From positions 7,347,001 to 7,411,000 of the forward strand of contig NZ_CP121666.1 in NCBI RefSeq assembly GCF_029714325.1: a stretch of DNA of 64,000 nt, written 5' to 3'. The notes below the pieces were generated by a model that was not told where the DNA came from, did not search any database, and was given only the letters and a program-made list of their open reading frames with translations. Origin of the DNA: Bradyrhizobium sp. CB1717 (GTDB taxonomy: Bacteria > Pseudomonadota > Alphaproteobacteria > Rhizobiales > Xanthobacteraceae). This document shows positions 41,313 through 60,260 of the stretch, piece by piece (position 1 is the stretch's first letter; each line of letters starts with the position of its first letter). The position numbers were made by a program, and so were the translations under genes.

Positions 41313-41340
41313 CTTGAACCGCACGTGGCGTCAGATTGTA
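41313..41340 (+). promoter_or_regulatory. 28-bp conserved element upstream of the carboxylase operon (copy A)
   Basis: CTTGAA-C-CG-C-ACGTGGCGTCA-GA-TTGTA. It matches copies at 55057-55084 (25 of 28 bases) and 46703-46730 (25 of 28). The stretch GTCAGATTGTAGGATCTTAA at its right part faintly resembles a tts-box. It lies 0.66 kb before the carboxylase genes. Confidence 0.6.
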
Positions 41341-41404
41341 GGATCTTAACGCAGGCGCGACCGTGTCTGGCCACCCAACGGCTTTCGGCTAATGAGAATC
41401 GCGA

Positions 41405-41821
41405 ATGTCTCACTATCTTTTGCGCACTTTCCGCCCCAGCCTGTCCCGGAGAACTTCCACGAAAGGTCCGTCGCACCTTCAATGCCCACCGGTTTCCTGG
41501 CTTGATGCGCTGGGGATTAGAGACTTTCGTCAAATACATCAGCCAGCGGACGGACGCGGCTCTTCGCCTGCAGCGCCTACCGGTGAGATTTCACGCCGCG
41601 CTTGTCGGATCTTTGGCTCCAACGAGAAGGAGCTTGCGCATGTGGCGCTCGGTTTCAGCGAAGAAGCGAGAGGAGACCATCCTTCCGCGATCATCGTGCT
41701 GATCGCCAAGGAGGCCGATGACCATGCCAACGAACAGGAGCGCGCGCAGTTGATCAACAGTTCCATAAGTAAGCAGGCCGGGCCGTCTGTAATCAAGCAT
41801 CAATGGCGACCTGCGGCTTGA
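41405..41821 (+). CDS. Unknown protein between the 28-bp element and the carboxylase genes
   Basis: A 138-codon frame whose second half looks like coding sequence (KELAHVALGFSEEARGDHPS, AIIVLIAKEADDHANEQERA). The first 50 residues look non-coding, so the real start may be internal or lost. The opposite strand is open too, which lowers confidence. It begins 65 bp after the 28-bp element. Confidence 0.3.
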   Translation: MSHYLLRTFRPSLSRRTSTKGPSHLQCPPVSWLDALGIRDFRQIHQPADGRGSSPAAPTGEISRRACRIFGSNEKELAHVALGFSEEARGDHPSAIIVLIAKEADDHANEQERAQLINSSISKQAGPSVIKHQWRPAA

Positions 41822-42003
41822 GAGAGCTGCGCGTTACGACCTTTTGCAGCTCGAATTCGACCATCGGAACTCCCCGAGTCCCTCGGCCCGCAGGCTCCGA
41901 AGCAATTCAACTCTTCCAAGCCGGCACCCCATGGGCAGGCCGCCGTCGCACCTGACGACAGCGCCGTTAAACGAGGGCTAAGTCGGCTTGGCTTTTGACG
42001 AAG

Positions 42004-43488
42004 ATGTGGAAAATGAAGCAATTGCCCTTTGATACAGTTTTGATCGCTAATAGAGGTGAGATTGCTGTACGTATCATCAAGACCCTACGCAAGCTCGGGC
42101 TTCGCTCTGCAATCGTGTACCACGAGATCGATGCGGACACTCCCGCGGTCTCGATGGCCGACGCCGCTATACCAATCAGCGGGCGTACACCCATTGCGGC
42201 ATATCTCGATATCGCCCAGATCATCGCTGCTACTCACAAAGCGCGGGCCGGCGCCCTTCACCCTGGCTATGGCTTTCTATCAGAGAATGTCGAGTGCGCC
42301 CGCGCGGTTATAAAGGCTGGCATCACCTTCATCGGTCCGGCTCCCGAAAGCATAGAACTCATGGGCGATAAAATTCGCGCTCGCGACTTCGTCCAGCGGA
42401 ACGGATTTCCGGTCGCACCTTGCGCAGTTGAAGAAGACGATCCAGGGACATTCTTATCTCGCGCGCGAGCAGTCGGGGCCCCTTTGCTCGTCAAACCTTC
42501 GGCGGGCGGCGGTGGTAAGGGAATGCGGATTGTGCGCGATCTCGGATCGCTGGAGGACGCGATTGCGCAAGCTCGCAGTGAGGCTCAGCGATACTTCGGA
42601 TGCAGTCGGCTTTATGTCGAACGATACATCGAACATCCGCGGCATCTCGAAGTTCAGGTGCTCGGCGACACGTTCGGACACGTTTTGCATCTTTTCGAGC
42701 GGGAGTGCTCGGTCCAACGACGATTCCAAAAGATCATCGAGGAAACGCCCTCGCCAGCGTTAACCTCCGATATGCGTCAACGATTATGCGACGCCGCCGT
42801 CGGAATCACGCGTGCAGCCAACTATCATAATGCCGGAACTGTTGAGTTCATTTTTGACGGAACAGAGTTCTATTTTCTTGAGATGAACACGCGCTTACAG
42901 GTCGAGCATCCAGTGACCGAGATGATCACCGGCATCGATCTTGTTGCCGAACAAATCTATGCCGCCGCCGGCTGTAAACTCGGATTTTCGCAATCCGACA
43001 TCTTGCAAAGTGGTCATGCGGTCGAAGTCCGGTTGTGTGCAGAAGCGCCGGAACGAGGGTACGCACCCACAACCGGCAAGATACTTATGCTCGAGTATCC
43101 GGAGGGCGACGACATACGGATCGACAGTGGCATCTCGGAAGGTCAGAGAATTACGACCGCATTCGATCCCTTGCTCGCGAAGATTATCGTGCATTCGCCC
43201 ACACGCTTGGAAGCTGTGCAGAAGGCAGGTCGCGCTATCCGGGAATTGGTACTTCTCGGCTGTGAAACAAACGCGAGCTCCCTGGCGCGCATCCTCGCGG
43301 ATGAGGGATTTCTACGCGGCCAAGTTCATACGGGATATCTCGACGCGAATCCGTTGCTTGCAGAGAGTGGCTCGGGGGGCGCACTGCCGCCCTTCTTGGC
43401 AGCAGCCGCTCTGCTGACAAGACAGGTCCGAGACTCCGCGGATGCTGTACCCAAGCTTCACGCGGCGCTAGGAAGCTGGAGAAATTGA
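42004..43488 (+). CDS. accC: Acyl-CoA carboxylase, biotin carboxylase subunit
   Basis: This is a complete ATP-grasp biotin carboxylase: FDTVLIANRGEIAVRII at the start, the ATP loop KPSAGGGGKGMRIVRD, the HLEVQVLGD block, ECSVQRRFQKIIEETPS with the catalytic Glu, and EMNTRLQVEHPVTEM. It carboxylates biotin with ATP and bicarbonate. The next gene, two bases on, is its biotin carrier. The start at 42004 is uncertain; 42013 is equally plausible. A second chromosomal set is expected elsewhere, so this is a dedicated island copy. Confidence 0.93.
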   Translation: MWKMKQLPFDTVLIANRGEIAVRIIKTLRKLGLRSAIVYHEIDADTPAVSMADAAIPISGRTPIAAYLDIAQIIAATHKARAGALHPGYGFLSENVECARAVIKAGITFIGPAPESIELMGDKIRARDFVQRNGFPVAPCAVEEDDPGTFLSRARAVGAPLLVKPSAGGGGKGMRIVRDLGSLEDAIAQARSEAQRYFGCSRLYVERYIEHPRHLEVQVLGDTFGHVLHLFERECSVQRRFQKIIEETPSPALTSDMRQRLCDAAVGITRAANYHNAGTVEFIFDGTEFYFLEMNTRLQVEHPVTEMITGIDLVAEQIYAAAGCKLGFSQSDILQSGHAVEVRLCAEAPERGYAPTTGKILMLEYPEGDDIRIDSGISEGQRITTAFDPLLAKIIVHSPTRLEAVQKAGRAIRELVLLGCETNASSLARILADEGFLRGQVHTGYLDANPLLAESGSGGALPPFLAAAALLTRQVRDSADAVPKLHAALGSWRN

Positions 43489-43489
43489 G

Positions 43490-43993
43490 GTGAAACACTG
43501 CTTTGAAGTCAATGGCGTAGAATATCCGGTATGGCTTGTACGCCACGAAGACGGATATCGCCTTCGCTTGGAGAATGAGGTGATTGCCTCACTGAGGTTC
43601 TCCCGCCAAACTGAGCGTCGCGGTACCCTCACTATAGCAGGTGAGTCCGAGCCAGTTAGATTCGTTGTTGATGGTGAGACTGTCCATTTGCATATGCGGG
43701 GCCTGGCGCGCAGTTTGCGTTATCGCGATCCCATGCGGGCCCCTGCTTCGGCTAGCCAGGAAACAAATCAGCTGATGGCCCGTGCGCCAATTCCTGGGAT
43801 GGTGTTAACCATCAACATTGTGCCGGGACAGTCCGTGGCCGGCGGCGCAGCCTTGATGACTATCGAGAGCATGAAGTTGGAAACCATCATACGCGCTCCA
43901 AAGCATGGCGTCGTCAGCCGCATTCATTTCAAAGAAGGCGAAAGCTTCGAGCGTGACGCTGTACTTGTTAGCCTTGTAGAGGAAGGAATTTAG
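43490..43993 (+). CDS. Biotin carboxyl carrier protein
   Basis: The 167-residue protein ends in a biotinyl domain with the acceptor Lys129 in TIESMKLET; the usual AMKM is SMKL here, which is allowed. The motif RAPIPGMVLTI at residues 98-108 is the usual first strand. The N-terminal 90 residues resemble the linking domain of propionyl-CoA carboxylase-type subunits. The GTG start lies two bases after the previous stop. It shuttles carboxybiotin between its two neighbours. Confidence 0.88.
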   Translation: MKHCFEVNGVEYPVWLVRHEDGYRLRLENEVIASLRFSRQTERRGTLTIAGESEPVRFVVDGETVHLHMRGLARSLRYRDPMRAPASASQETNQLMARAPIPGMVLTINIVPGQSVAGGAALMTIESMKLETIIRAPKHGVVSRIHFKEGESFERDAVLVSLVEEGI

Positions 43994-43994
43994 A

Positions 43995-45602
43995 ATGCAG
44001 CGGATCGCCTCTCTGGTAGACCCGAGATCGGAAGGGTTTCGCGCCAACGAACTTCACAATAAGCGGCTTGCCACCGAGTTGAAGGCGCTCCAGCATGCCA
44101 TCCGCTTCGACCGGCCAGCGCGAGAAATCGAGCGGCTGCAGCAACAGAACAAGATGTTCGTTCGTGATCGGATCGAGGCATTACTCGATCCTGATACGCC
44201 GTTCCTGGAGCTCTCGACGCTGGCTGGCAACAGGGCGTACGACGGTGAGGTGCCGAGTGCGGCCCAAGTCGTTGGCCTAGGAATCGTTGCTGGTCGCGAG
44301 GTTATCGTTCACGCGGATGATCCCAGCGTGAAAGGGGGGGCCTGGTATCCGCATTCGGTCAAGAAGATCGTGCGAGCTTTGGACATAGCGATCGAGAATC
44401 ACCTGCCTGTGATTCATTTGTGTGATTGCGCTGGCGGTTTCCTACCGATGCAAGCCGAGTTTTTTGCGGATAAATACCATGCTGGACGAATCTTTCGGAA
44501 CCAGTCCATACTCTCGAAGATGGGAGTGCCGCAGGTCGCTATCGCAATGGGTCATTGCACCGCGGGGGGCGCCTACGTTCCGGCACTCAGTGACTACAAC
44601 ATTATCGTCGAGGGCACGGGAGCGATTTTTCTCGGCGGCCCCCCGGTTGTCAAGGCTGCCACCGGCGCGGTAGTTACTGCCGAAGAGCTTGGTGGCGGCC
44701 GCGTGCACACCAGCGTATCGGGGACGTGCGACTATCTCGCCAGGTCCGAGGCACATGCGATTGCGATCGCTCGTGACCTCATCGCTCGCTTCCATCAGCC
44801 CGCGAAGACCCTGATCAACCGGGCCGCCCCGGAGCCGCCGGCCTACGACGTGTCAGAACTGTATGGTATCCTTCCAAGGGATCCACGCGCGCAGCTCGAG
44901 ATGCGAGAGGTCATTGCCCGTCTGGTCGATGGCAGTCGCTTCCACGAATATCAGCCTTGCTACGGCGAGACTCTGGTGTGCGGCTTTGGACAGCTCCACG
45001 GCTATCAAATCGGTGTCCTGGCGAACAATGGTGTGCTCCTAAGCGAAAGCGCACTGAAAGGTGCTCATTTCATTCAGTTGTGCGACAAGAACCGAACACC
45101 CCTTCTCTTCCTGCAGAATACCACCGGTTTCATGGTTGGCCGAGACTACGAAAGGCGAGGCATAACCAAGGATGGCGCTAAGTTGATCATGGCGGTGGCT
45201 GGAGCGTCTGTGCCCAAATTCACGCTCATTTGCAGCAGCTCCCATGGAGCCGGCACCTACGCTATGGCAGGACGGGCATTTGACCCACGCTTTTTGTTTT
45301 CCTGGCCGAACTCTCAGATCTCAGCAATGGGCGCCGAACAAGCGGTGGGCGTGCTCACACATGTCAAGGCAAAGCAATTGGCGTGCCGGGGTAGGCGACT
45401 TTCGGAAGAGGAGCTGACGGCCATTCGTCAGCCCATTGTGGAAGAGTATCGGGAGCGGTCGAACGCCTACTATGCGACATCCGAAATATGGGACGACGGA
45501 ATTCTTGATCCGGTGGACACCAGGACCGCCCTTGCTATCGTTCTTAGCGCCTCGCTCAATGCGCCCATCGCGGCGCCCCATTACGGCGTCTTCAGAATGT
45601 AG
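43995..45602 (+). CDS. Acyl-CoA carboxylase, carboxyltransferase subunit (methylcrotonyl-CoA carboxylase beta-like)
   Basis: The 535-residue protein matches the MccB branch: RDRIEALLDPDTPFLELSTL, VKGGAWYPHSVKKIVRA, AMGHCTAGGAYVPALSDYN, FLGGPPVVKAATGAVV, and FLQNTTGFMVGRDYERRGI. It transfers the carboxyl group from biotin to an acyl-CoA. The methylcrotonyl or geranyl-CoA type is favoured over propionyl-CoA by the HCTAGGAYVPA and QNTTGFMVG blocks, but the real substrate is unknown. It starts at the codon after the carrier's stop and completes the enzyme. Confidence 0.9.
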   Translation: MQRIASLVDPRSEGFRANELHNKRLATELKALQHAIRFDRPAREIERLQQQNKMFVRDRIEALLDPDTPFLELSTLAGNRAYDGEVPSAAQVVGLGIVAGREVIVHADDPSVKGGAWYPHSVKKIVRALDIAIENHLPVIHLCDCAGGFLPMQAEFFADKYHAGRIFRNQSILSKMGVPQVAIAMGHCTAGGAYVPALSDYNIIVEGTGAIFLGGPPVVKAATGAVVTAEELGGGRVHTSVSGTCDYLARSEAHAIAIARDLIARFHQPAKTLINRAAPEPPAYDVSELYGILPRDPRAQLEMREVIARLVDGSRFHEYQPCYGETLVCGFGQLHGYQIGVLANNGVLLSESALKGAHFIQLCDKNRTPLLFLQNTTGFMVGRDYERRGITKDGAKLIMAVAGASVPKFTLICSSSHGAGTYAMAGRAFDPRFLFSWPNSQISAMGAEQAVGVLTHVKAKQLACRGRRLSEEELTAIRQPIVEEYRERSNAYYATSEIWDDGILDPVDTRTALAIVLSASLNAPIAAPHYGVFRM

Positions 45603-46082
45603 TGGCGGCACCGGAGATCGAGATCAGATGAAGGCAAGACACGATGTTCCTCCGCTACACCAGAGCCGGCGTGCCATTCGCATTCCCAGACGCGCGGCCA
45701 AAGCGCCGTGCTCGCTCCCACTCACGAAGGAGGCCCTGCGACGGAGAGCTCCACACACACCGTCGGCGTATAATCCGCAAGACTTGGGTCTGGGCGCACT
45801 TTAAGGGATTAGGTATGGCGTTGCGCCCGGCTCGACGGCAGAGCGAACACTCCCCAGGCTTAATCAGCCACAAACCTCGACTTGAGTCGGCTTCGCGCGG
45901 CCCAGTTTGAAACGGTTCCTCCCATATGTCGGGTTTCTACGGCGTACGCCTCGATCATGTTGCTCGTCTCTGGCGCGTGCAGGCTGGCTTGTGCCCGACC
46001 CTGATGCCGACGTAGAGCCCAAAGAAGTCGTGCAGCCGACTATGACATCGCGCGAAGCTCAATAGTCAAGGAATCTGCGTCT
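45603..46082. other. Stretch without a supported gene after the carboxylase operon
   Basis: Only short arginine-rich shadow frames; no terminator could be assigned with confidence. Confidence 0.35.
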
Positions 46083-46373
46083 ATGCTGTGCCCAAAATGT
46101 CACTCGAATAAATGGTACCAGAGCGCCTTGCACGATCCCTGGACTGGCCGACCGGTGAGGGCGTGTAGTGCTTGCGGCGAGTATGCCGATTACGACTGCC
46201 CGCGGCGCAACAAAGCGGTTGCGCTCATCGCCGGCGCGTTATCGGATGACCTCAACAAAGAACATCAGGGCAGTCCGCGGGTGGCTGCGGAGAACATCTT
46301 GGATGCTCTCGAGAAAGCTGGCCTGACAATCGCTCGCACTGAGACGATATGGACACGTCTTTGGCGGAGTTAA
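46083..46373 (+). CDS. Small zinc-ribbon protein
   Basis: The 96-residue protein begins with a zinc ribbon (LCPKCHSNKWYQS, then ACSACGEYADYDCP), followed by a helical part (VALIAGALSDDLNKEHQGSP). It is short, soluble and monocistronic. Zinc ribbons of this sort bind nucleic acid or protein partners. It lies 0.33 kb before the 28-bp element of the trp operon. No function is known. Confidence 0.6.
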   Translation: MLCPKCHSNKWYQSALHDPWTGRPVRACSACGEYADYDCPRRNKAVALIAGALSDDLNKEHQGSPRVAAENILDALEKAGLTIARTETIWTRLWRS

Positions 46374-46702
46374 GTTCCCTCCCGCCCGTCAGGGAGCTTG
46401 CTGCCCCGATTGACGTTGGCCTGCAGCCGTAGCGCTGATTGCTCTTGCCTTCAGACCTGGATCGTCATTAGGAGAGCTGCACTGCGCTCTAGTGATAAGT
46501 GAGTGCGACGGTGGAATTTCCGCGGCCCGATACAGCTTATTCGCGTCACCTCAAACGCGACGCCAATGCCTACTACGTCGAATTTGACTGCCAATTCGCG
46601 TGATCCTTCTACATGTCCATGGTTGGCGTCGGCAGATGATTGTCGCTTTGCGAGCGTGGACGACCGTCCGCCAGAATAAGCCGCTAGAACGCCGTCGCAG
46701 GG

Positions 46703-46730
46703 CTTGAAACGCACGTTGCGTCAGGTTGTA
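46703..46730 (+). promoter_or_regulatory. 28-bp conserved element upstream of trpDC (copy C)
   Basis: CTTGAA-A-CG-C-ACGTTGCGTCA-GG-TTGTA, 385 bp before trpD. Three differences from copy A. No gene was found between it and trpD (46374-47114 otherwise has no supported gene). Confidence 0.6.
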
Positions 46731-47114
46731 GCCTGTACGCTGATCGTGGCGCCAACCTCGATCTATTTGGCCCCGACGGTACTAGCGCGATTGGGCCTAT
46801 AAAGAGCAGCATAGAGGAAGGCCCCGTGTGCATCGACTTCTAACTTATGACGCGAGCGGCAGGACACTGTCATGGGCCACGGGCAGACGGTACGCCGCGC
46901 AAGAACGAAACGGCCGCAGCCGAAGGCACCGTCTTTCCCTGCGGCTGCGATGGCCTGGAACACGGCGAATAGATGTATTTGTCGTGAGTTCCTGAGGGAG
47001 GTTCGACTTTTTGTCGCGAGATGAAGGGCCGACGACACGCTTCGTCCACCCGACTACCAGATCACCCAGCTACTTCCGCGACCAGCAGCAACCAAGATTG
47101 GGCTCGCACTCACC

Positions 47115-48128
47115 ATGGACTCCCTCAAGTCTAGCATTGGGAAAGTCGCCACCGGCGCCGGATTGACCCACGAAGAAGCAGCATCAGCATTCCAAATAAT
47201 CATGTCTGGCGAGGCCACGCCTTCACAGCTTGGCGGGCTCCTGATGGCGCTGCGGGTGCGGGGCGAAACCGTCGAAGAGATCACGGGAGCGGTTTCGGCC
47301 ATGCGCAGCAAGATGCTCCGGGTGAGCGCGCCCGCCGAGGCAATCGACATTGTCGGCACCGGAGGGGATGGTTCTGGCACCGTGAACGTGTCCACATGTG
47401 CCGCTTTCATTGTCGCAGGCGCTGGCGTTCCAGTTGCAAAACATTGCAACGGAGCGGCCTCATCGCGCTCAGGCTCCGCCGACGTCCTCGCCTCGCTCGG
47501 CGTGAGGCTTGATCTGGATCCTGATCGCGTTGGCCGCTGTGTGCGCGAAGCTGGAATTGGATTTATGTATTCGCCCATCCATCATCCCGTGATGAAGCAC
47601 GTCCGCTCGACACGGACCGAGCTTGCGACTCGTACCATCTTCAATATGCTGGGCCCGCTAGCCAATCCGGCAGGGATCACGCGGCAGCTTGTGGGGGTTT
47701 TTTCGCGACGGTGGGTGCAGCCTTTCGCGGAAGTGCTGAAGACTCTTGGCGCTGAGTCGGCCTGGGTCGTGCATGGTTTGGATGGGCTCGACGAGCTCAC
47801 ACTTACCGGTCCTACTCTAGTCGCCGCACTTAGCGAGGGCAGTATCCGCACATTCGAGGTGACGCCGGAGGAAGCAGGCCTCACTCGTTGTGGCGGAGAA
47901 AGTCTAAAGGGCGGCGATGCCGACGCTGGCGCAGTGGCGCTACAACGCGTGCTGGAAGGCATACGAGGCCCGTATCGGGACATCGCGATTTTCAACGCCG
48001 CAGCAGGGCTGGTGGTCGCCGGCCACGTCAAGACCCTAAAGGAGGGCGTCGCCCTTGGAGAGCAATCACTCGATACGGGCGCCGCAGCGGCCCGACTGAA
48101 GCGTCTGATCGAAGTGTCAAACGCTTGA
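47115..48128 (+). CDS. trpD: Anthranilate phosphoribosyltransferase, island copy
   Basis: The 337-residue protein joins anthranilate to PRPP in tryptophan synthesis. It has [14 protein letters not shown] (81-94) for PRPP binding, the [10 protein letters not shown] loop, and [10 protein letters not shown]. The usual KHGNR stretch reads KHCNG (109-113), an odd substitution next to the active site. Length is normal. It precedes trpC by 14 bp. Because the core genome should have its own trpDC, this pair likely feeds a tryptophan-derived product or loosens feedback during symbiosis. Confidence 0.93.
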
Positions 48129-48142
48129 CGACGGGATAGCCA

Positions 48143-48961
48143 ATGTCGGACTTTCTGAGCAGGATCGAGGCCTATAAGCGCGAGGAGATCATCTACGCCA
48201 AGGGAGCAGTTCCGCTATCAGAGGTCGAGGCGCTCGCACGGCGTGCTCCGGCGCCACGTGGATTTGTCAGCGCGATCCGCAACAAGCATGTTGCGCGCGA
48301 GTACGCACTAATTGCCGAGATAAAGAGGGCATCCCCCTCTAGAGGGCTCATTCGCGCCGACTTCGATCCGTCCTTGCTGGCGAAAGCCTATGAAGCCGGC
48401 GGAGCAGCCTGCCTCTCGGTCCTGACGGATGGGAAGTCCTTTCAGGGACATCTCGATTTTATGATGGCGGCGCGAGCTGCAACAAGTCTGCCGATACTGC
48501 GAAAGGACTTCATCTTCGATACCTATCAGGTAATCGAAGCGCGCGCCTATGGATCTGATTGCATCCTGATCATCATGGCGGCTCTCGACGACGGCGCTGC
48601 CCGCGATATCGAAGCCGCCGCACATTCATATGGTATGGACGTCCTAATCGAGATCCATGATCGGGAGGAGCTCGAGCGCGCGCTAAGGCTTCATTCGCCC
48701 ATGATTGGCATTAACAACCGTAACCTGCGTACCTTTGTGACAACCCTAGCGATCACAGAAGCGCTGGCGCCGCTGGTTCCACGAGACCGTTTAACCGTCT
48801 GCGAAAGCGGCATCTTTGCGAATTCCGATCTGCAGCGGCTCTCACGGGTGGGCGTCTCAACTTTCCTCGTCGGCGAGAGCTTGATGCGACAGTCCGATGT
48901 CACGGCAGGAACCCTTGCGCTGCTATCGCACCGGCCTGCCGTTAGGCCCGGAACGCATTGA
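48143..48961 (+). CDS. trpC: Indole-3-glycerol phosphate synthase, island copy
   Basis: The 272-residue protein closes the indole ring of tryptophan. It has the full family signature: [15 protein letters not shown] with the catalytic Lys, [43 protein letters not shown], and [14 protein letters not shown]. Nothing is missing. It is co-transcribed with trpD. There is no trpF domain fusion. With the aminotransferase further on, it could supply indole precursors. Confidence 0.94.
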
Positions 48962-49090
48962 TGCACGCAGAATCCTCCGCTTCGACTCGATTAGCTCCCG
49001 TTCGGCAAGAAAGGCATCGGCCTATGCGCGTGGCAGCAATCGCCTCGACCTACATTGACGGTCCGGCCAACTCTTTCGAAACGTATCGCA

Positions 49091-49393
49091 ATGATCATCG
49101 AATACTCACGTAAACGTGGCCTACACCTGCACGATCCCTTCGATTTCCGTAAGCTTAAGCTCGTATTCAAGGCTGAAGCGCCTGTAGGATCGCCTGCTTT
49201 AAGAGGGATTGTCATCGCGGACAGGGACAATGCACTGGTACCTGTTGATCTTATTCCCGTTCTGCCAGGCACCCCGCATGACGATAACTCCTGGGCAACA
49301 GCTTACCGAAAGATGGTTGAATTGGCCCGCGAGCTAAACTGGATCGATGTCGACGCAAACGCAATTCGCGTGCACATCGAGAAAAACTTCTGA
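49091..49393 (+). CDS. Unknown 100-residue protein downstream of trpC
   Basis: The frame MIIEYSRKRGLHLHDPFDFR, KLKLVFKAEAPVGSPALRG, IVIADRDNALVPVDLIPVLP looks like real coding sequence with mixed strands and helices. The ATG at 49091 is preferred to an upstream TTG. It lies 130 bp after trpC in the same direction and may be the last gene of that operon. No family recognised. Confidence 0.55.
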   Translation: MIIEYSRKRGLHLHDPFDFRKLKLVFKAEAPVGSPALRGIVIADRDNALVPVDLIPVLPGTPHDDNSWATAYRKMVELARELNWIDVDANAIRVHIEKNF

Positions 49394-49679
49394 TTATGGA
49401 CGCCCCACTCCCGTAGCGAGGCGGCCTATTCAGTAGACGTTACCCCCCGGGTTGCCGCAGGTATCTGCCGCCGGCCGTCATCGGGGAGCAAGGGGATTGG
49501 TCTGGTGGCGGTCCAAATCGGATCTTGGATGGCTTGGCGTAGCGGGCCCGCGACCGCCTGGGAGCCGCTCCTCAATCAACCGATGACAACGCAATCGAAC
49601 TCCACGAACCACGATCTGACTTTCCATTTGGGCACGTCGGAACGACGACGATGTCAACGACGAAAACGGCGAGCGACTG
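49394..49679. other. Spacer before the AMP-forming ligase
   Basis: No gene. No copy of the 28-bp element was found here, so the ligase may be read from the trp promoter or its own. Confidence 0.4.
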
Positions 49680-51209
49680 ATGATAAATCTTAGCACTCTG
49701 GTTGAGCGCAACGCGGCGTTCGAGGCCGACAAAGCCGCAATCCATTTTGAGGGGACCACGTTGACCTATGGCGCTCTCGTCGGCCGTATCGAACAGGCCG
49801 CGCGAGCCTTGAAAGCCCGGCTCGGCGTCGAGAGAGGTGACCGCATTGCGATCCTTAGCCTCAATCGGCCTGACTATCTCGTTCTGCTGTATGCCTGCGC
49901 CCGGCTCGGCGCAATTCTCGTACCGTTAAATTGGCGGCTTGCGATCGCCGAGCAGCTCTTCATCCTGTCCGATGCTGGTATCAAAGTCCTTGTGCTTGAA
50001 CCGGCCTTTGAGAGACTCCTCCCGACGCTAGCGGAGCAGTTGCCCTCGGCAACCATTATAGGATTCGACTTTGACCCAGTCGGCGGAATCAAATGGTGTG
50101 AGCTGCTCGAGGAAGCGCGCGGTGATGACCGCAACGCGTATGTCGATCTGTCCTGCCCACTCCTGATCGTCTATACGTCGGGAACTACGGGACGACCCAA
50201 GGGCGCTGTGCTGCGCCAGGAAGCCTTGCTTTGGAATGGCGTCATGAGTCGGCACATGCATGGGCTCGACCCCAGCGATCATATCCTGTCCGTGTTGCCT
50301 TTGTTTCACGTCGGCGGCCTCAACATTCTGACCACGCCAGCGCTGCATTACGGCGCAACCGTGACGCTCCACGGGCGGTTTACGCCAGAGGCAACGCTTG
50401 CAGCGTTTGAGCGCGATCAACCCACGTTAACTGTATTGGTGCCAGCGACGATCCAAGCTCTGGCCGGTCATCCCGGGTGGCCGATGGTCAACGTATCCTC
50501 ACTGAAGGCCATCTCCACCGGCTCAACCATGGTGCCAAGGCACGTCATCAAACAATTGGCCGAACGCGGCGTAACGGTGCTGCAGGTTTATGGCTCGACG
50601 GAAACCAGTCCAATTGCTCTCTATACACGGCGAGGCGGCGATCTCACACGTGATGGTTCGACCGGACTGCCGGGCCTGTGCTGCGAAGTGGCAATCATGA
50701 ATGATGCCGGCGATAGGCTGCCGCCAGGCACTGCAGGCGAGATTGCAGTACGCGGGCCCAATCTCTTCTGCGAATATTGGAACAACCAACATGCAACCCG
50801 CGAGGTTTTGCGCAACGGCTGGTATTATACTGGCGATGTCGGTCGCCACGATGCGGATGGATATTTTTGGGTACTGGATCGCAAGAAGAATATGATCATT
50901 TCCGGCGGAGAAAACATTTATCCGGCGGAGGTAGAGCGGGTGCTTACGGGGCACCCCGATGTCGCGGAGTGCGCCGTTATCGGCCGGCCCGACCCTCGTT
51001 GGGACGAAGTGCCCGTCGCCTATGTAGTCAAGCAGCCCGGGGCCCGGATTGAGGCGGACCTGCTGATCGCCTTTGTGAAGGCGCAGCTCGCAGGCTTTAA
51101 GGCGCCACGCGAAATCATCTTTACAGATGGGTTGCCGAAGACGGAGTTGGGCAAAATCCAGCATTTCAAGTTGAAGGAGCTCGATGCCCGCACAAGCAGT
51201 CAAATCTAG
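49680..51209 (+). CDS. AMP-forming acyl-CoA synthetase (ANL family ligase)
   Basis: The 509-residue protein activates a carboxylic acid as an acyl-adenylate and then a CoA thioester. It has the phosphate loop YTSGTTGRPKGAV (165-177), LPLFHVGGLN, YGSTETSPIALY, the hinge YTGDVGRHDADGYFWVLDRK, and the C-terminal GLPKTELGKIQ with the catalytic Lys. These are standard for medium or long-chain acyl-CoA or aryl-CoA ligases; the substrate cannot be read from sequence. In this island it could feed the acyl-CoA carboxylase. Confidence 0.9.
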   Translation: MINLSTLVERNAAFEADKAAIHFEGTTLTYGALVGRIEQAARALKARLGVERGDRIAILSLNRPDYLVLLYACARLGAILVPLNWRLAIAEQLFILSDAGIKVLVLEPAFERLLPTLAEQLPSATIIGFDFDPVGGIKWCELLEEARGDDRNAYVDLSCPLLIVYTSGTTGRPKGAVLRQEALLWNGVMSRHMHGLDPSDHILSVLPLFHVGGLNILTTPALHYGATVTLHGRFTPEATLAAFERDQPTLTVLVPATIQALAGHPGWPMVNVSSLKAISTGSTMVPRHVIKQLAERGVTVLQVYGSTETSPIALYTRRGGDLTRDGSTGLPGLCCEVAIMNDAGDRLPPGTAGEIAVRGPNLFCEYWNNQHATREVLRNGWYYTGDVGRHDADGYFWVLDRKKNMIISGGENIYPAEVERVLTGHPDVAECAVIGRPDPRWDEVPVAYVVKQPGARIEADLLIAFVKAQLAGFKAPREIIFTDGLPKTELGKIQHFKLKELDARTSSQI

Positions 51210-51832
51210 GCAGATTGAATGTATGGGATTGGACACCAACGGTAGTATCTACCTTTCAAGCCCGACTTGGCTACTCAAGCCATCATCGCCTCCAATCTGC
51301 TTCGGGCCTTCTTGTGTCACACAAGATCGCAGTAATCGGTTCGGAGTTGTCGACTAAAACAGGTAGTCGTCCGTATGAATCAAGAACCTCGGACGAGCCG
51401 AGCCAGGAGAGAAACTTGGGCGCAACACAAGTTTCCCCCACGGCGAGGCCCGGAAGTGATAGCCAGCACTCGAGCACCGCGTCGATGGCGTCTCCTTCGC
51501 GATACCATCGTTAATTGCCCGTGCCGCACTCGATCTGATCTGGCGATGACCGGCTCGACAGTGGCCCCCCGCGGAGTGCGCTTGGTTTGGTGGTGTAAGC
51601 CGCCATTTCTGTCCCGAGATGAACGCCCTTAGCGTGTAATGCGGGGAAGTCGCGGCGACAGCCGGTCGAGCCCCGTGCGCTCGATGCTGTTTAATTGCCA
51701 CCTCCATCTGGAGGATGACGGTTACAAGTGTGTGATCGTTAAGCCGTTGCAGAGCATCGTCTTCACATGGGCCACGAATTGCCCGTCTTGGCGTGAACCA
51801 GCGTGTTGCCGACCTAAACTTCGGCGCCAAAC
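51210..51832. other. Stretch without a supported gene before the IS66 element
   Basis: Shadow frames only. It is the left flank of the IS66 insertion, which begins after the target duplication at 51833-51840. Confidence 0.4.
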
Positions 51833-51840
51833 GTAAGGTC
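51833..51840 (+). repeat. IS66 target duplication, left copy
   Basis: GTAAGGTC, identical to 54880-54887. Confidence 0.9.
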
Positions 51841-52465
51841 GTAACCGGTATGCGCTCCCACATCCGCAGTGATCCGCGGGCGCGTGCGTAGCGGATCGGC
51901 ATCCAGTATTGGCGCAGCGCCTCGACGGCCGCTCGAATATCGAGGTGGGCGTTGCGGAGAAAGTCCTCGGTTTCGCGGCCGCTTCGCGGCGGTCCGAGCA
52001 GCGGACGGCCCTGATCGTCGCGACAGTGCAGCAGGACGGGCAGCAGCAGGCCGTGATTGACGTTGCTGGTGTCCAGCAACGGCGCCCACGCCGACAGCCT
52101 GAGCCGCATCGCGACGCATCGATATCGCCGTTGGCTTCGCGCCGGTGCATCGGCGCGAACTGGCGAGGCGTGGTCGAAAGGGTCTGGCGGATCTCGTTAT
52201 GATGCAGCGCGACGGCGGAAATCGCCGCGAAGTCCGGGGTGCCGACGTGGTTGAAAGCATCGGCATCGATGGCGAGCAGCGGGCAGATCCAGTCGAGCGG
52301 GCTCATCGACACCGGTCCGGTCACGATCGCGGCGACGTAGCCATCGAGCGTGGGAATGCTGGTGGCGACAGGATGCCGATCAACGCGAGCCTGGAGCCAT
52401 CGCTCGAGCTTCTTAATGGCATCGCGGCTACCGCCATCGCCGACGCTGCTTTATGACGACACGGG
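51841..52465 (-). pseudogene. UPF0149 (YecA-like) passenger gene of the IS66, frameshifted
   Basis: Frames line up as KKLERWLQARVDRHPVATSI, PTLDGYVAAIVTGPVSMSPL, DWICPLLAIDADAFNHVG, then after a shift near 52105 SNVNHGLLLPVLLHCRDDQG and AVEALRQYWMPIRYAR. This is the UPF0149/YecA pattern. The start codon is also out of frame. Some rhizobial IS66 elements carry such a gene. Confidence 0.6.
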
Positions 52466-52466
52466 C

Positions 52467-53933
52467 TCATGCCGCGGCCTGTGCGGTGCGCTGGCGCGCC
52501 GCCTTCCAGTTCCAGGCGAGCAGCTCGTGCAGCTGATGGCTCTTGGTTTGCCCGGACAAGATGCGGTCGGCCAGGTAGGCCTGCGGGTCGAGTTCATGGA
52601 GCTTTGCCGTGTTCCCGAGCGACGCCAGGATCGCCCAGCTCTCGGCGCCGCCCTCGCTGCCGCTGAACAACGAGTTGCGTCTTCCCATGGCAATCGGGCG
52701 CATGGAACGCTCGACCGTGTTGGAATCGACCTCGACGCGGCCGTCGCGGAGAAACAGCGTCAGGCCATCCCAGTGATTGAGCGCATAGTTGATCGCCTCT
52801 GCCAGCTTCGACTGGGAGAAGGGCTGGCCCACGATCTCGGTCAGTCGCGCCTTGAGCGCCACCATCAACGCTGCGCTCCTGGTGCGGCGGGTGGCCAGCC
52901 GCTGCTCCGCACTGTTGCCGCGGATCGCGGCTTCGATCGCATAGACCGCCAGCAGGCGTTCGATCACCTCGCGCGCAAACGGCGATTGCGTCGTTTTGAA
53001 CACCTCGACGAATTTGTGTCTGGCATGGGCGAGACAAAAGGCGAGCTGGATCGCGCCGCCATGGTCGCGGGCCAGCGCCTTGTAGGCGGCATAACCGTCC
53101 ACCTGCAGAATGCCGGAAAAATCCGTCAATTGTCCGGCGATCTCCTCGGTGCCGCGGCCGTCGGCGAACACGTAGGCGACCGCCGGCGGCGAAGGGCCAC
53201 CCCATGGCCGGTCATCCATGGCATGCGCCCAGAACTGCAGATGCGAGTGCGATGTCGTCCGGGATCGAGCACCGGCATCGGAGTCTCGTCGCAGAACACG
53301 CGCGGCGAGGCCTGGATTGTGCGCAGCTGGAGCTCATAGAGGCTCTTGAGCCACCAGGCCGCAACGCTTCGCCCAGCCGGCAAGCGTCGATCGGTTAAGA
53401 TGGATGCCCTGGCCGGCCAGAATCTGCACCTGCCGGTACAGCAGCAAATACCAGGCGAACTTGGAGACCACCACGTGAGTCACGAGCGCGGTTGAGGCCA
53501 TGCCGCTCTCGATCAGGCGTGGCAACGCCTTCACCTGGACCACGCCATCGGTGCAGCCGCGGCAGGCGTATTTGGGACGGATCGTCCGCAACACGCGCAG
53601 GATCGCCGGGATCACGTCCAGCACCTCGCTGACGTCCTCGTCGATCTTGTGGAGCTGGCCCTGGCAGCACGGGCAGGCGGTCGCCTCCGGCTCCAGCACC
53701 TGCTCACAGCACAGCAGGTGCTTGGGCAGCGCGCCGATGTTGCGGCGCGCCTTCTTGCGTGTCAGACGGCTTCCCGCAGGCGGGGTGGCGCCGGTCTCAA
53801 GGTCGTCAAGCTCAAGCGCGAGTTGCTCGGCCACGAGCGTGGCAAGCCGCTCGTCGTTCTCGACGTCAAGCGCGAGCACCATCTCGGTCAGAGCCGCCGG
53901 ATCGGTCGGGAGAGCATCGGGGCGAATCGCCAT
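52467..53933 (-). pseudogene. IS66 transposase TnpC, two frameshifts
   Basis: The N-terminal part (MAIRPDALPTDPAALTEMVL and zinc-finger block CCEQVLEPEATACPCCQGQ) runs to STLAGWAKRCG. A frame change near 53360 leads to WLKSLYELQLRTIQASPRVF with CDETPMPVLDP, and another near 53250 to the rest (YVFADGRGTEEIAGQL, FCLAHARHKFVEVF, EVDSNTVERSMRP) up to 52467. The DDE positions can be found but not in one frame. Confidence 0.85.
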
Positions 53934-53976
53934 GATCGAACGATACATGCGCCCACTCCATGCTCCAGCGAAATCC

Positions 53977-54336
53977 TCACCTCTCAGCCAACAACGGCCG
54001 GCTGCTTCGCAGGCTTGGGAGAGACACGCGTCCACTCGAGTCCGTCGAGAGCATCGCGAGCTGCGTCGCACTTAGATGCACCACACCGTCGCGGATCGGC
54101 GGCCAGGTGAAACGCCCCTGGTGCAACCACTTCGTCACCAGCACCATGCCGCTGCCGTCCCACGCTAAAAGCTTCACTCTGTCCATGCGTTTGCTGCGGA
54201 ACACGAAGACGTCGCCACAATACGGGTTCGCACGCAGCGCTTCGCTCACCAGCGCCGACAGCGTGTGCACCGACGTGCGGAAATCGACCGGCTGTGTCGC
54301 CAGCACCACCTTGAGGCCAGACCGCAGCGCAATCAA
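53977..54336 (-). CDS. IS66 TnpB (Orf2) protein
   Basis: The 119-residue protein matches IS66 Orf2: VVLATQPVDFRTSVHTLSAL, NPYCGDVFVFRSKRMDRVKL, LAWDGSGMVLVTKWLHQGRF. It is required for IS66 transposition, role unclear. It looks intact and overlaps tnpA by four bases. Confidence 0.88.
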   Translation of the reverse strand: MIALRSGLKVVLATQPVDFRTSVHTLSALVSEALRANPYCGDVFVFRSKRMDRVKLLAWDGSGMVLVTKWLHQGRFTWPPIRDGVVHLSATQLAMLSTDSSGRVSLPSLRSSRPLLAER

Positions 54337-54794
54337 CGGATGCCCCGAAGCGCCGACAGCACCGTCAAAAGCGTCGCCAGCTCCACGCCCGGCTCAACCC
54401 GGATGCGCGCCCCACTCAGTTCGATTTCGATCACTCCGCAGGCCTTCGCCGGCGGCGCGGCGATCTCCAAAGGCCTCGTCTGTGCTGGCGAACTGCGCTC
54501 GGCCTCGCCGGCCGTCTCGCCGTCGCTCTCGGCCCCAATTTGGATCGGCACGAAGCTCGACGCCTTGCCGGCTACCACCGTCGCAACCTGGCGTCGCCAC
54601 ACCGTGAGCAGCCCGCGGAAAACGCCATTGCGTCGCGCCACCTCGGAGATGTTCGCACCTTCCTCAAAGCTCTCCGCCGCGATCCGGGCCTTCTCCTCGC
54701 CCGTCCATCATCGCCGCCGGCGCTCCCCGGTGATTACCTCGACGCGACGATAAGAATCGCCTTCCTGTCTGACATCAAGCATGGCATTTGCCAT
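54333..54794 (-). pseudogene. IS66 TnpA with an in-frame stop
   Basis: From the ATG at 54794 the frame reads MANAMLDVRQEGDSYRRVEV, ITGERRRR, then TGA, then WTGEEKARIAAESFEEGANI and SEVARRNGVFRGLLTVWRRQ. An extra TGA codon between CGA and TGG breaks an otherwise normal protein with a helix-turn-helix. A restart at the downstream MARRNG-like codon would lack half the domain. Confidence 0.75.
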
Positions 54795-54879
54795 CGTTCC
54801 ACCTCCAGCGAACCGCTCATGCCAGGCTGTATTGCGCGCAAACCGAAGGATGGCTAGGTGGGGGCGTCATGCCGCTTAC

Positions 54880-54887
54880 GTAAGGTC
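54880..54887 (+). repeat. IS66 target duplication, right copy
   Basis: GTAAGGTC, identical to 51833-51840. Confidence 0.9.
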
Positions 54888-55056
54888 GGTGTGTCCTGCT
54901 CTTTCAACAGATCCCACCTCCAGCCCGTGCAAAGTAGACTTTCGGTCCAAGTTGGTGCTGGTTCTGCTGAAGCAGGCGTCGCGCACGCGCCAGTATACAC
55001 TCCAACGCCTTCGATCCGGTTGAGTCCAGGAAATTGACTGCAAGGCGCACTAGGGG

Positions 55057-55084
55057 CTTGAATCGTACGTGGCGTCAAATTGTA
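55057..55084 (+). promoter_or_regulatory. 28-bp conserved element upstream of the aminotransferase operon (copy B)
   Basis: CTTGAA-T-CG-T-ACGTGGCGTCA-AA-TTGTA, 615 bp before the aminotransferase gene. Three differences from copy A. The remaining stretch 54888-55698 has no supported gene. Confidence 0.6.
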
Positions 55085-55698
55085 CGATCTAAGACAACGA
55101 GGCGGTGGTGCATCACCACACCAACTCCAGCTAGGCCGCGGCTTAGGGTTCAGAGGCTCACTTCTCGACGGAGTGCCGGGAGAACGGATGAGATTCGGCA
55201 CCACGAGGATGATTGGTCGGAAACTGCTTGAGCGAAGGATAGAGGATTGTACTGGACAGCGCGAGGATGATCGATACGGCCCCAGTCTTTGAACGAGAGA
55301 CTTCGCCCGACAAGACCTGCGGACCCATTCGTTCGTGGCTAACATACATCGATAGCGCCATCAAAGGGGTCCGCCAGCTTGGAACGTCGCTCGTTGAAGA
55401 ACTGGATCTCTGGATCCTTTTGCAACGGAGCTGTGTGATGCGGAAAATAATAGCTTCTGAGCTCAAGACGACGGACAGCAAACGCGTCTTGGTCGTTCAG
55501 ATCAGTTGAGTTTCGTCCTGCTCACAGCATCGAGATAGCCCACCCGCACGGGTGACTTCAGCTCACCTTTGCTGGCGCCTGACCCGATGCGCTCGACCCC
55601 ACTAAGACTGCTTAGTTCGAACATCCCAGCCCGCCAGCTTTCGGCGCCGTTGGCGCGCCACTCGCGCAAAACTCTTCACCGGAGAACGAAAGACAATC

Positions 55699-56796
55699 AT
55701 GACAGACGCAAAAATACCGAGCCTGCTGTCATCGCTTACTCCGATCGCTCGCGAATTGGACGCTCTCCCGGCGGGCCGGCCAGCGCCGGCTGCTTGTTTG
55801 ATGAGGCTAAATGCAAATGAGAATCCATTTCCGTTGCCAAGCATTGTGATGCGAAGTGCAATTGCAGCGCTAGAGCGGCAATACCTGTATCCAGAGCATG
55901 ACAATATCACCTTGAGGGAAGCAGCGGCCGCCGCCTATGGCATGTCCGCGGATCGCGTCATGGCTGGTAATGGATCATCTGAACTTCTTAGCCTGATTTA
56001 TAGAGCTTTTCTTGCTCCGGGTGACAGCATCGCAATGTTGTCGCCGGGGTTCTCGTTCAACCGTAAGCTAGCCTCGTTACAAGGGGCGCAGTTTATTGAA
56101 GTCCGCGGCAACGAACTTGACAGCCTGCCGATCGACAGCTTTCTCTTCGGACCTGCAAGACATGCCAAATTCATTCTGTTGGCAAATCCGAACAATCCGA
56201 CGGGCGCCTTCGTGCCAGTCGCTGAGATCGAGCGCCTCGTAGCGAAGTATGACCGATTGGTCGTGCTGGACGAGGCGTATATCGACTTCGCGCCTGAGAA
56301 CGGGCTGCACCTGGTGAACCGATATTCAAATCTTCTGATTCTGCGTACGTTCTCCAAGAGCTATGCAACCGCGGGCATTCGCATTGGCTTCGCGTTCGGA
56401 CATCCCGAGCTGATTGGGAGGCTTCGTAACATCCAGAATATGTTCAACATGAATGTGATTGGGCACGCCGTTGGCATGAGCGTCCTTTCCAATCGTCGCG
56501 CTTATGACGAGAACCACAACCACATCAAGCATGAACGGCAGCGAGTCTCGGGCGCGCTCTCCGAGTTCGGGTTCTCTGTAATACCCTCGCACGCGAATTT
56601 TCTCCTCGCCCGTGTGCCTGCGGGTCGGGACGGCAAATGGTGGCAGAGCGCTTTGGAGCGTCAGGGGATCCTTGTCGCCTTCTTTCCGGATGACGGTCTA
56701 GAAGATTGTATTCGCGTTAGCATCGGTACAAGGAACCAGATGGACCCATTTCTTGAGGCCGTCGACAAGATTCGTCGGGGAGCAGACAGCTCTTAA
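55699..56796 (+). CDS. HisC-like PLP aminotransferase (y4wE-type)
   Basis: The 365-residue fold-type I aminotransferase has LNANENPFPLP, LANPNNPTGAF (161-171), LDEAYIDFAPEN, and the PLP-binding Lys220 in TFSKSYATAGIRIG. This is the histidinol-phosphate aminotransferase subgroup, which also acts on aromatic amino acids. Its pairing with the following monooxygenase is like y4wE-y4wF of Rhizobium sp. NGR234, a locus linked to flavonoid-induced indole-3-acetic acid. It might turn tryptophan into indolepyruvate; this is inference. Confidence 0.88.
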   Translation: MTDAKIPSLLSSLTPIARELDALPAGRPAPAACLMRLNANENPFPLPSIVMRSAIAALERQYLYPEHDNITLREAAAAAYGMSADRVMAGNGSSELLSLIYRAFLAPGDSIAMLSPGFSFNRKLASLQGAQFIEVRGNELDSLPIDSFLFGPARHAKFILLANPNNPTGAFVPVAEIERLVAKYDRLVVLDEAYIDFAPENGLHLVNRYSNLLILRTFSKSYATAGIRIGFAFGHPELIGRLRNIQNMFNMNVIGHAVGMSVLSNRRAYDENHNHIKHERQRVSGALSEFGFSVIPSHANFLLARVPAGRDGKWWQSALERQGILVAFFPDDGLEDCIRVSIGTRNQMDPFLEAVDKIRRGADSS

Positions 56797-57028
56797 GTCC
56801 GTCATGTTCATCCAACCGTCGGGCACGTGAGCAAGAAGGTTTGGCGCGCCCGCCCGGCTCCTCGCCAGGCCGCCTCTTCGATCTGCTGTCGGACGTACGC
56901 TCTGGATCCGCAGAGCTATCGCCGCAGGCGGCATGAACTCGGCCCTGCATCAAAAGCAACGCATTCGCCCGGCCGCTTCAGCTTTCGACAGCCAGCGGTC
57001 CTCAACCTCACACACTGGAGATAGTCTA

Positions 57029-58057
57029 GTGACTAACATCCTTGGTTCAAATCTGACTTGCGGCATCTTCGATCATTTTGATGAAGATGGGCGCAGTATT
57101 GCCGATCAATATGCAGACCGTCTGGTCTTGGCCGAGACCTACGATCGCCTCGGATTCTATGCGTATCATCTCGCGGAGCATCACTGTACCCCCCATGGAC
57201 GAAGCCCCTCGCCCAACCTGTTTTTATCCAGCGTGATACAGCGCACCCGGCGGCTTCGCGTCGGCCAATTGGTCATGCTGCTCAACCTCTATCACCCGCT
57301 GCGTGCGTTCGAGGAGATCTGCATGTTGGATCACTTGAGTAATGGCAGACTTGAAGTGGGTATTGGGCGTGGCTCCCTCCCGATGGAACTAACTTATTTC
57401 GGGGTGGACGCGGATGTGGCTCCCAGTCGTTACGAAGAAGCTTCCCAAATCCTTCTTAATGCGATGAATGGCGGAGTTCTAAACTACCGGGGGCAGCATT
57501 TTGTCCTCGACGGTGTTCCTCTGACCCTTTCGCCCCACCAGCGTCCGCACCCTCCGACATGGGTCGCTACAAATCGGCTAGAGTCCGCCAGTTGGGCAGC
57601 AGCAAATGGCGCAAACCTTGCGTGCGTGGGGCCGTCTTCTGTTGTTCGCAAAGTCAGCGACGTGTTTCGCGCTCATGAGAAAACCAAGCGCCTGGCTGAA
57701 GGTAGGGACCGGTTTATTGCTTTGCTCCGCATGATCGTGATTGGTCGTTCTGAAGCAGAGGCCTATTCGCTCGCCGCACCAGCTTACGAACGCTGGCTCA
57801 CCAGCTTTAAGTTCTTATACGAGTTGAACGAGCTATCCCTGCCCGCCAATCTTCCTCCGACTTTCGAGGCCGCAATCGAAAGTGAACTGTGCGTCGTAGG
57901 AACGCAAGCTTCTGTGCGGCAGACCGTTCTTCATCATCTGGAAGAGGCCGGTGCTAACTATCTTCTTTGCCAGCCCGCATTTGGAAACCTGCCTGTCGAC
58001 GCAGCCGTTAACACGGCAGCTGCGATCCACTCTGAATTCATCGCCCCAGAGGGGTGA
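57029..58057 (+). CDS. Luciferase-like flavin monooxygenase (y4wF-type)
   Basis: The 342-residue protein has the luciferase-like pattern: LAETYDRLGFYAYHLAEHHC, HGRSPSPNLFLSSVIQRTRR, EEICMLDHLSNGRLEVGIGR, and PTWVATNRLESASWAAANGA. Such enzymes use FMNH2 and oxygen. The GTG at 57029 with GGAGA upstream is chosen over a longer frame from 56933. It follows the aminotransferase by 232 bp in the same direction. Its substrate may be the aminotransferase product. Confidence 0.85.
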   Translation: MTNILGSNLTCGIFDHFDEDGRSIADQYADRLVLAETYDRLGFYAYHLAEHHCTPHGRSPSPNLFLSSVIQRTRRLRVGQLVMLLNLYHPLRAFEEICMLDHLSNGRLEVGIGRGSLPMELTYFGVDADVAPSRYEEASQILLNAMNGGVLNYRGQHFVLDGVPLTLSPHQRPHPPTWVATNRLESASWAAANGANLACVGPSSVVRKVSDVFRAHEKTKRLAEGRDRFIALLRMIVIGRSEAEAYSLAAPAYERWLTSFKFLYELNELSLPANLPPTFEAAIESELCVVGTQASVRQTVLHHLEEAGANYLLCQPAFGNLPVDAAVNTAAAIHSEFIAPEG

Positions 58058-59639: not shown

Positions 59640-59977
59640 TTCTATTGCCCTCAAGCTGCCTGTCGGTACCCTTGGCCCGCGCAGGTACGGTACAGCTTGT
59701 CGTCGAAGCCAGGCAGTTCAAGCCGACTTTGCAGGTGGCCTTCGTCATCAACCGCAAGATTTCCAACACCGCAATCGGACGGGACGTGGTGAAAGCCTTA
59801 GCCAGCTTCGACATTCCCGTTTGCGACCAGGCGCTAAGCCAACGGGTCGCTTATGCCGAAAGCGCGACGCGAGGGCTGTCCGTCGTAGAGGCAGACCCCA
59901 CAAGCGAAGCCGCTAAGGAGATTGCCAGGCTCGTTCGGAGCTTGACCACGATGAACCAAGCGAAAGCGGCTGCATGA
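59640..59977 (+). pseudogene. parA: C-terminal part of a ParA partition ATPase
   Basis: The frame TVQLVVEARQFKPTLQVAFV, INRKISNTAIGRDVVKALAS, and the end SEAAKEIARLVRSLTTMNQA matches the C-terminal third of plasmid ParA proteins. The Walker motifs are absent: the 5' part is lost at the IS3 side. The stop overlaps the next gene (ATGA). Confidence 0.75.
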
Positions 59978-60227
59978 GCAAGACTGTTAGCTTCAACATG
60001 CCGGTGAAATCGAAGTCGGCCGATAACTGGGTAAGCGAAGGCGTCGAGCCGCATCTGAAGCCGCTCGAATCGCTGCCGACAGCGCCGCCCAAGGTCAAGC
60101 GCGAGTGGAAACGCTTCACATTGGACGTGCCGCTCGAATTGCATGCGCGGGTCAAACTGGGGTGCCTTCAGTCATGCTCGACGAAATCATTCGCTTGCTG
60201 GAAGCTGAGTTTCCAGCCGAATCGTGA
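59974..60227 (+). pseudogene. ParB-like ribbon-helix-helix partition protein, frameshifted
   Basis: It starts MSKTVSFNMPVKSKSADNWV and reaches RFTLDVPLELHARVKLGC. A shift near 60175 moves the end (MLDEIIRLLEAEFPAES, stop at 60225) to another frame. As a result the first frame runs on into the replication gene. It would be the DNA-binding partner of ParA. Confidence 0.65.
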
Positions 60228-60260
60228 AATCGTGGACACGATTAATCGTGTGATCGTGGA

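Follow-up and report, generated by a model that had tools for sequence, protein, structure and literature searches.

A Candidate NolA Promoter-Operator Upstream of Three Metabolic Operons in the Symbiotic Region of Bradyrhizobium sp. CB1717

Introduction

A 64,000-nucleotide stretch of the genome of Bradyrhizobium sp. CB1717 (contig NZ_CP121666.1, positions 7,347,001 to 7,411,000; hereafter the window, numbered from its first letter) carries three metabolic operons, each preceded by a copy of the same 28-bp element. Copy A (41313..41340) lies ahead of an acyl-CoA carboxylase operon, which encodes a biotin carboxylase (41995..43488, an open reading frame (ORF) from a TTG codon whose true start may be further in), a protein with a biotinyl (biotin/lipoyl) domain (43490..43993) and a carboxyltransferase (43995..45602). 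Copy B (46703..46730) precedes trpD, the gene of anthranilate phosphoribosyltransferase (47115..48128), and trpC, that of indole-3-glycerol phosphate synthase (48143..48961). Behind copy C (55057..55084), the first annotated-type gene codes for a hisC-like aminotransferase (55699..56796) and is followed by the gene of a luciferase-like (LLM) flavin-dependent monooxygenase (56933..58057). All these features are located on the plus strand.

We propose that NolA, a regulator of the MerR family, acts on the element as its promoter-operator ("NolA box") and that its regulon in this symbiotic region comprises about 16 promoters, those of the three operons among them, a reading to which we assign a probability of roughly 85%. 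NolA tunes nodulation in Bradyrhizobium, and its control switch has long been sought. Work cited in the accessible text of PMC5596368 described the protein in 1991 and nodD2 activation by it in 1996.

Three Copies of One Element and Their Distribution

The original prediction held that the three copies share blocks of letters at fixed spacing, lie in otherwise dissimilar sequence and point toward the operons. All three match that pattern exactly. Copy A differs from copy B and from copy C at three of 28 positions each, which bears out the predicted identity of 25 in 28, and B differs from C at five. The flanks of the three copies align poorly, and the genes downstream are on the same strand, with 384 to 654 nt between the end of the box and the first codon (385 to 664 had been given). 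At up to three mismatches, the motif had no match in 100 dinucleotide shuffles of the window, with 0.00 expected by chance. The conserved element is longer than the 28 bp first described, has the anatomy of a promoter and occurs in 12 further copies outside the window. A search of the window for known RNA families returned nothing except one tRNA.

At the same threshold, the 9.23-Mb genome contains 15 copies, 13 on the plus and two on the minus strand, and no match anywhere to the reversed pattern. All 15 are confined to a single 510-kb stretch (7,388,313-7,898,379), which also carries nodA (7,668,068) and nolA (7,672,997). With a position matrix built from 115 non-redundant copies of other genomes, the 800 kb surrounding the nod region yielded 16 copies scoring above 32 bits and three weak ones of 13-23 bits; in 20 control stretches of 20 kb elsewhere in the genome, nothing exceeded 8 bits (best -8.5). 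The weak sites (G000:C1:7680605, 7489763 and 7894793) are possibly decayed copies, and one of them has a stronger box on the opposite strand at a distance of about 160 bp.

Within the genus, the motif is present in 85 of 146 Bradyrhizobium genomes and its reversed form in none. The motif-bearing genomes are the identical 85 that have a strong nodA match; of 94 genomes matched initially, nine were dropped for having weak NodA matches alone (E above 1e-7). NolA was matched in 84 genomes, of which 83 were counted, all among those with motif and nodA; the remaining one, G035, was left out (43% identity, E 2.8e-16, no motif). These 83 genomes hold 3 to 26 copies each, with a median of 12. An order-wide scan of 347 genomes from 134 genera found the motif in three, every one a Bradyrhizobium.

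The placement of the box before the operons of the window is conserved to different degrees. The carboxylase was matched in 48 of the 146 genomes, and in all of the best 30 of these loci that were fetched (own genome included) a box lies 618-1,324 bp upstream; among the 18 remaining genomes, G031 and G051 have the motif nowhere. For hisC, matched in 56 genomes, 11 of the best 30 loci have a box within 1.5 kb upstream, and four of the other 19 (G050, G052, G128 and G133) have one at 2.2-2.6 kb. Among 150 non-redundant boxes elsewhere, the trpD of the window was the best match for none and its paralogue for one. Altogether, 114 of these 150 have, within 2.6 kb, a match to a gene from a query set of 15, most commonly the binding protein (39) or nodD2 (29). 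The suggestion that one regulator controls all three operons is thus supported by the confinement of the element to the symbiotic region, its fixed spacing and its retention before carboxylase orthologues (30/30).

Two other copies of the genome deserve mention here. The leader at L005 (G000:C1:7640884) resembles those found in several relatives about 1.1-1.3 kb ahead of the carboxylase; in the present genome, a small ORF comes behind it, as does a second trpD-like gene, and the carboxylase, with a copy of its own in front, is some 250 kb distant. At L010 (G000:C1:7646914), the AMP-ligase-like ORF behind the box has just 126 amino acids and is probably a remnant.

Promoter Anatomy

In the 115 copies, the conserved part extends from about -5 to 34 relative to the first base and reads AAA.GG followed by CTTGAATCGCACGTAGCGTCAGGTTGTAGGnT. 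Letters inside the 28-bp pattern are favored because the copies were found with that pattern; outside it, A is prominent at -5 and at -4 (76% at either position), as are G at 0 (in 70%) and T at 32 (in 73%). Positions 27 and 28 are T in 100% and A in 97% of the copies. The sequence is consistent with a promoter having a -35 hexamer TTGAAY at 2-7, a fixed 19-bp spacer (8-26) and a -10 hexamer TASNNT at 27-32, the latter predicted from T27, A28 and T32. The putative NolA boxes of the window would accordingly comprise TTGAAC (41314-41319) and TAGGAT (41339-41344) in box A, TTGAAA (46704-46709) and TAGCCT (46729-46734) in box B, and TTGAAT (55058-55063) and TACGAT (55083-55088) in box C. Half sites are separated by the same gap in every one of the 245 distinct contexts from other genomes, and 15 of the 16 contexts in this region share it. 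Among the centers tested for dyad symmetry, the best was 15.0, with a mean complementarity of 0.62 against 0.44 for the next; in box A, the arms fall within 41317-41337. A sigma-54 promoter was rejected on inspection because its spacing is unsuitable.

This layout is reminiscent of MerR-family promoters, which have a spacer of 19-20 bp with a palindrome inside (accessible text of PMC9909328); the element has both a spacer of this length and a dyad within the spacer region. The Escherichia coli copA promoter, which is controlled by CueR, similarly combines a TTGA-type -35, a 19-bp spacer, a best dyad center of 15.0 and a TA...T -10, but differs in the letters of its dyad and in its signal. The copA promoter sequence was found in 5,363 of 5,426 genomes, lying upstream of copA in the one inspected. 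CueR has few targets, near their genes, whereas about 16 promoters are found here, most of them several hundred nucleotides from the gene.

NolA as the Candidate Regulator

One box stands directly before the gene of a 240-residue MerR-family protein that matches PF13411, PF00376 and PF09278 above the cut-off. The protein is identified as NolA from its position beside nodD2 and from the literature, with no family model behind the name. It resembles MerR-DNA structures. A single-sequence structure model had a mean predicted local distance difference test (pLDDT) score of 57 and was confident only at about residues 10-100, and hence speaks for the DNA-binding part alone. NolA is a candidate for the regulator because the box has a 19-bp spacer and a dyad, because nolA is the only MerR_1 gene of the stretch and because the box is found at the reported NolA targets. 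Indeed, nolA is the only one of the six MerR_1 genes of the genome that lies between 7.39 and 7.90 Mb, two others being at 8.02 and 8.07 Mb.

The box is directly upstream of nolA in all 67 named loci, starting 30-39 nt before the codon of residue 1. In 19 aligned NolA sequences, Met4, unlike Met1, is invariant, and the first ATG of nolA is unconserved; translation therefore probably starts at Met4, about 8 nt past the predicted transcription start. At least one nodD gene is present in 66 of the 67 loci, and in 56 of them a box is located 190-396 bp ahead of the nodD closest to nolA. The other 63 nodD copies in these loci have no box (best score -19); they are the second nodD of 53 box-bearing loci and the sole nodD of 10 others, which is more similar to NodD1. 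According to the introduction of PMC9927474, NolA of strain USDA110 "activates itself and NodD2". Both reported targets, nolA and nodD2, thus carry the box, and nodD1 is without it.

Bradyrhizobium guangxiense CCBAU53363, whose plasmid record is identical to contig 2 of one of the genomes analyzed (G122) over the 8,000 bases compared, offers an outside check. It has three boxes, before nolA, before an operon of hisC and an LLM oxidoreductase, and before a hypothetical gene. Deletion of nolA in this species changed 11 genes under genistein, 10 down and one up, four of which are named in the main text: nopP, virK, X268_RS35990 (a transposase) and X268_RS37710 (an LLM oxidoreductase) (PMC9927474). 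X268_RS37710 is the second gene behind the hisC-LLM box, and box C of the window precedes the same kind of pair. Of the two box transcripts of B. guangxiense other than that of nolA, one therefore holds a gene changed in the nolA mutant, with four of 11 names known from the accessible text.

Evidence Against NolA and Alternative Explanations

Several observations weigh against NolA as the regulator behind the box. The dyad is imperfect, with six of 10 pairs in the consensus, and covariation fails to back it: the pairs 7-23 (p 0.02) and 14-16 (p 0.045) are weaker than the off-dyad pair 7-22 (p 0.0005). The distance from the box to most targets, 130-1,300 nt, is large for MerR targets, and 36 of the 150 boxes in other genomes could be assigned to none of the 15 query genes. 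In the B. guangxiense mutant, virK is changed with no box within the 16 kb scanned, and nopP is changed although its promoter is not shifted by NolA (accessible text of PMC9927474); both effects are probably indirect, and with them part of the nolA response. Ten genomes (G017, G040, G043, G047, G095, G096, G106, G136, G141 and G142) have a stop inside the nolA match, yet retain 8-22 boxes each. NolA is naturally short in B. guangxiense as well, and the C-terminal part of the protein may be dispensable for DNA binding. Finally, the motif follows nodA (85/85) no less closely than it follows NolA (83), so that the pattern of co-occurrence is by itself insufficient to single out NolA, and the two nodA genomes in which NolA was not detected, G037 and G073, retain one and two boxes, respectively.

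This co-occurrence would fit any regulator of the nod region. The element could be the promoter of another such regulator (NodW/NwsB, for example) or of an alternative sigma factor, NolA being just one of its targets, and its most conserved letters do coincide with the -35 and -10. We consider this unlikely, since the 19-bp spacer and the copA-like dyad center form a MerR layout, NolA is encoded by the only MerR_1 gene of the stretch, and the two reported NolA targets carry the box while nodD1 does not. Much less probable still is control by TtsI through a tts box or a related site, to which the original prediction had noted a weak resemblance. Both kinds of sites occur in the same region and share the letters GTCAG-TTGT, which fall in the right dyad arm and the -10 region. 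However, none of the 15 motif copies overlaps any of the 10 tts-like sites found genome-wide (up to three mismatches from the consensus), and the element lacks the second half of that consensus; the suggestion is not supported. To see whether the motif persists where a type III system is lacking, the type III secretin was searched for, but it gave matches in all 146 genomes, 0 of them above the cut-off, and did not discriminate among them. The nod box, bound by NodD, governs genes of the same region, but its ATC-N9-GAT palindrome (accessible text of PMC5596368) is absent from the element consensus by inspection. A dispersed mobile or neutral repeat devoid of regulatory function was rejected and is the least probable of all: the copies are many and the region is rich in mobile genes, but the flanks differ, the spacing is constant, the control stretches are empty, and the orthologous placement before nolA, nodD2 and the carboxylase across the genus largely refutes it.

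Proposed Mechanism and Relation to Published Work

MerR proteins activate transcription by kinking and untwisting the promoter spacer. If the element is a NolA box, as its sequence suggests, a NolA dimer would bind the dyad between the -35 and -10 hexamers and, on receipt of a signal, would kink and untwist the over-long spacer, RNA polymerase with the main sigma factor then using both hexamers. The predicted transcription start is about 7 nt beyond the -10, so that the leader would be only about 8 nt long on nolA and would reach several hundred nucleotides on most other targets. The nolA box would account for the reported autoactivation and the nodD2 box for the reported activation of nodD2. 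Genistein, which is listed for NolA in the accessible text of PMC9909328, or another signal might set the state of the protein.

In a previous study, a search of the 250 bp preceding nodD2 did not reveal a conserved NolA site, and the copy at nolA was read as a sigma-70 promoter with a 16-bp spacer (accessible text of PMC5596368, 2017). In contrast to this picture, the box described here lies 190-396 bp upstream of nodD2 and has many further targets. In the accessible main text of PMC4842269, checked for published start sites, nolA appears in the reference list only. No defined NolA site was found in the open-access literature, subscription papers, including the original NolA papers, being outside the search. 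While MerR-type promoters are of a known kind, the box, the regulon and the link to these operons appear to be new. A box just beyond the 250-bp range would make the direct targets of NolA predictable in nodulating Bradyrhizobium; attention would then turn from the repression of nod genes to a group of metabolic operons. It would be unusual for a regulator of the MerR family to act, as predicted here, at 3 to 26 promoters per genome, many of them with very long leaders.

A Second Leader Element and Other Observations

Some leaders contain a second element, GAATTGCGAATGTCTCA, which includes an imperfect dyad, GAGA-N10-TCTC. Behind box A, it is found with one mismatch at 41396..41412 on the plus strand. 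Sequences closely resembling it lie 75-88 nt behind the start of the box in four of the 15 own copies (41396-41412 in the window, and G000:C1:7640971, 7646989 and 7863290). These four are the only sites of the genome at up to two mismatches; seven more appear at three, and the reversed control gave one. Among 134 non-redundant boxes, own copies included, nine have the element at up to two mismatches and none its reversed form. Of the 30 carboxylase leaders, 20 have it at up to two mismatches and 27 at up to four, 81-92 nt past the start of the box. No consensus RNA fold was predicted for these leaders.

A bolder and rather doubtful possibility is that NolA is the master of a symbiosis-wide regulon extending beyond the nodD2 switch. 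The metabolic operons under its control (hisC-LLM monooxygenase, trpD/trpC, acyl-CoA carboxylase and a branched-chain-type binding protein) would then serve to synthesize or take up a small molecule, which might be the density signal of NolA itself, and the second leader element would gate some of these operons.

Elsewhere in the window, and within the symbiotic region, positions 59974-60735 encode a 253-residue protein that matches the DnaA N-terminal domain (PF11638).

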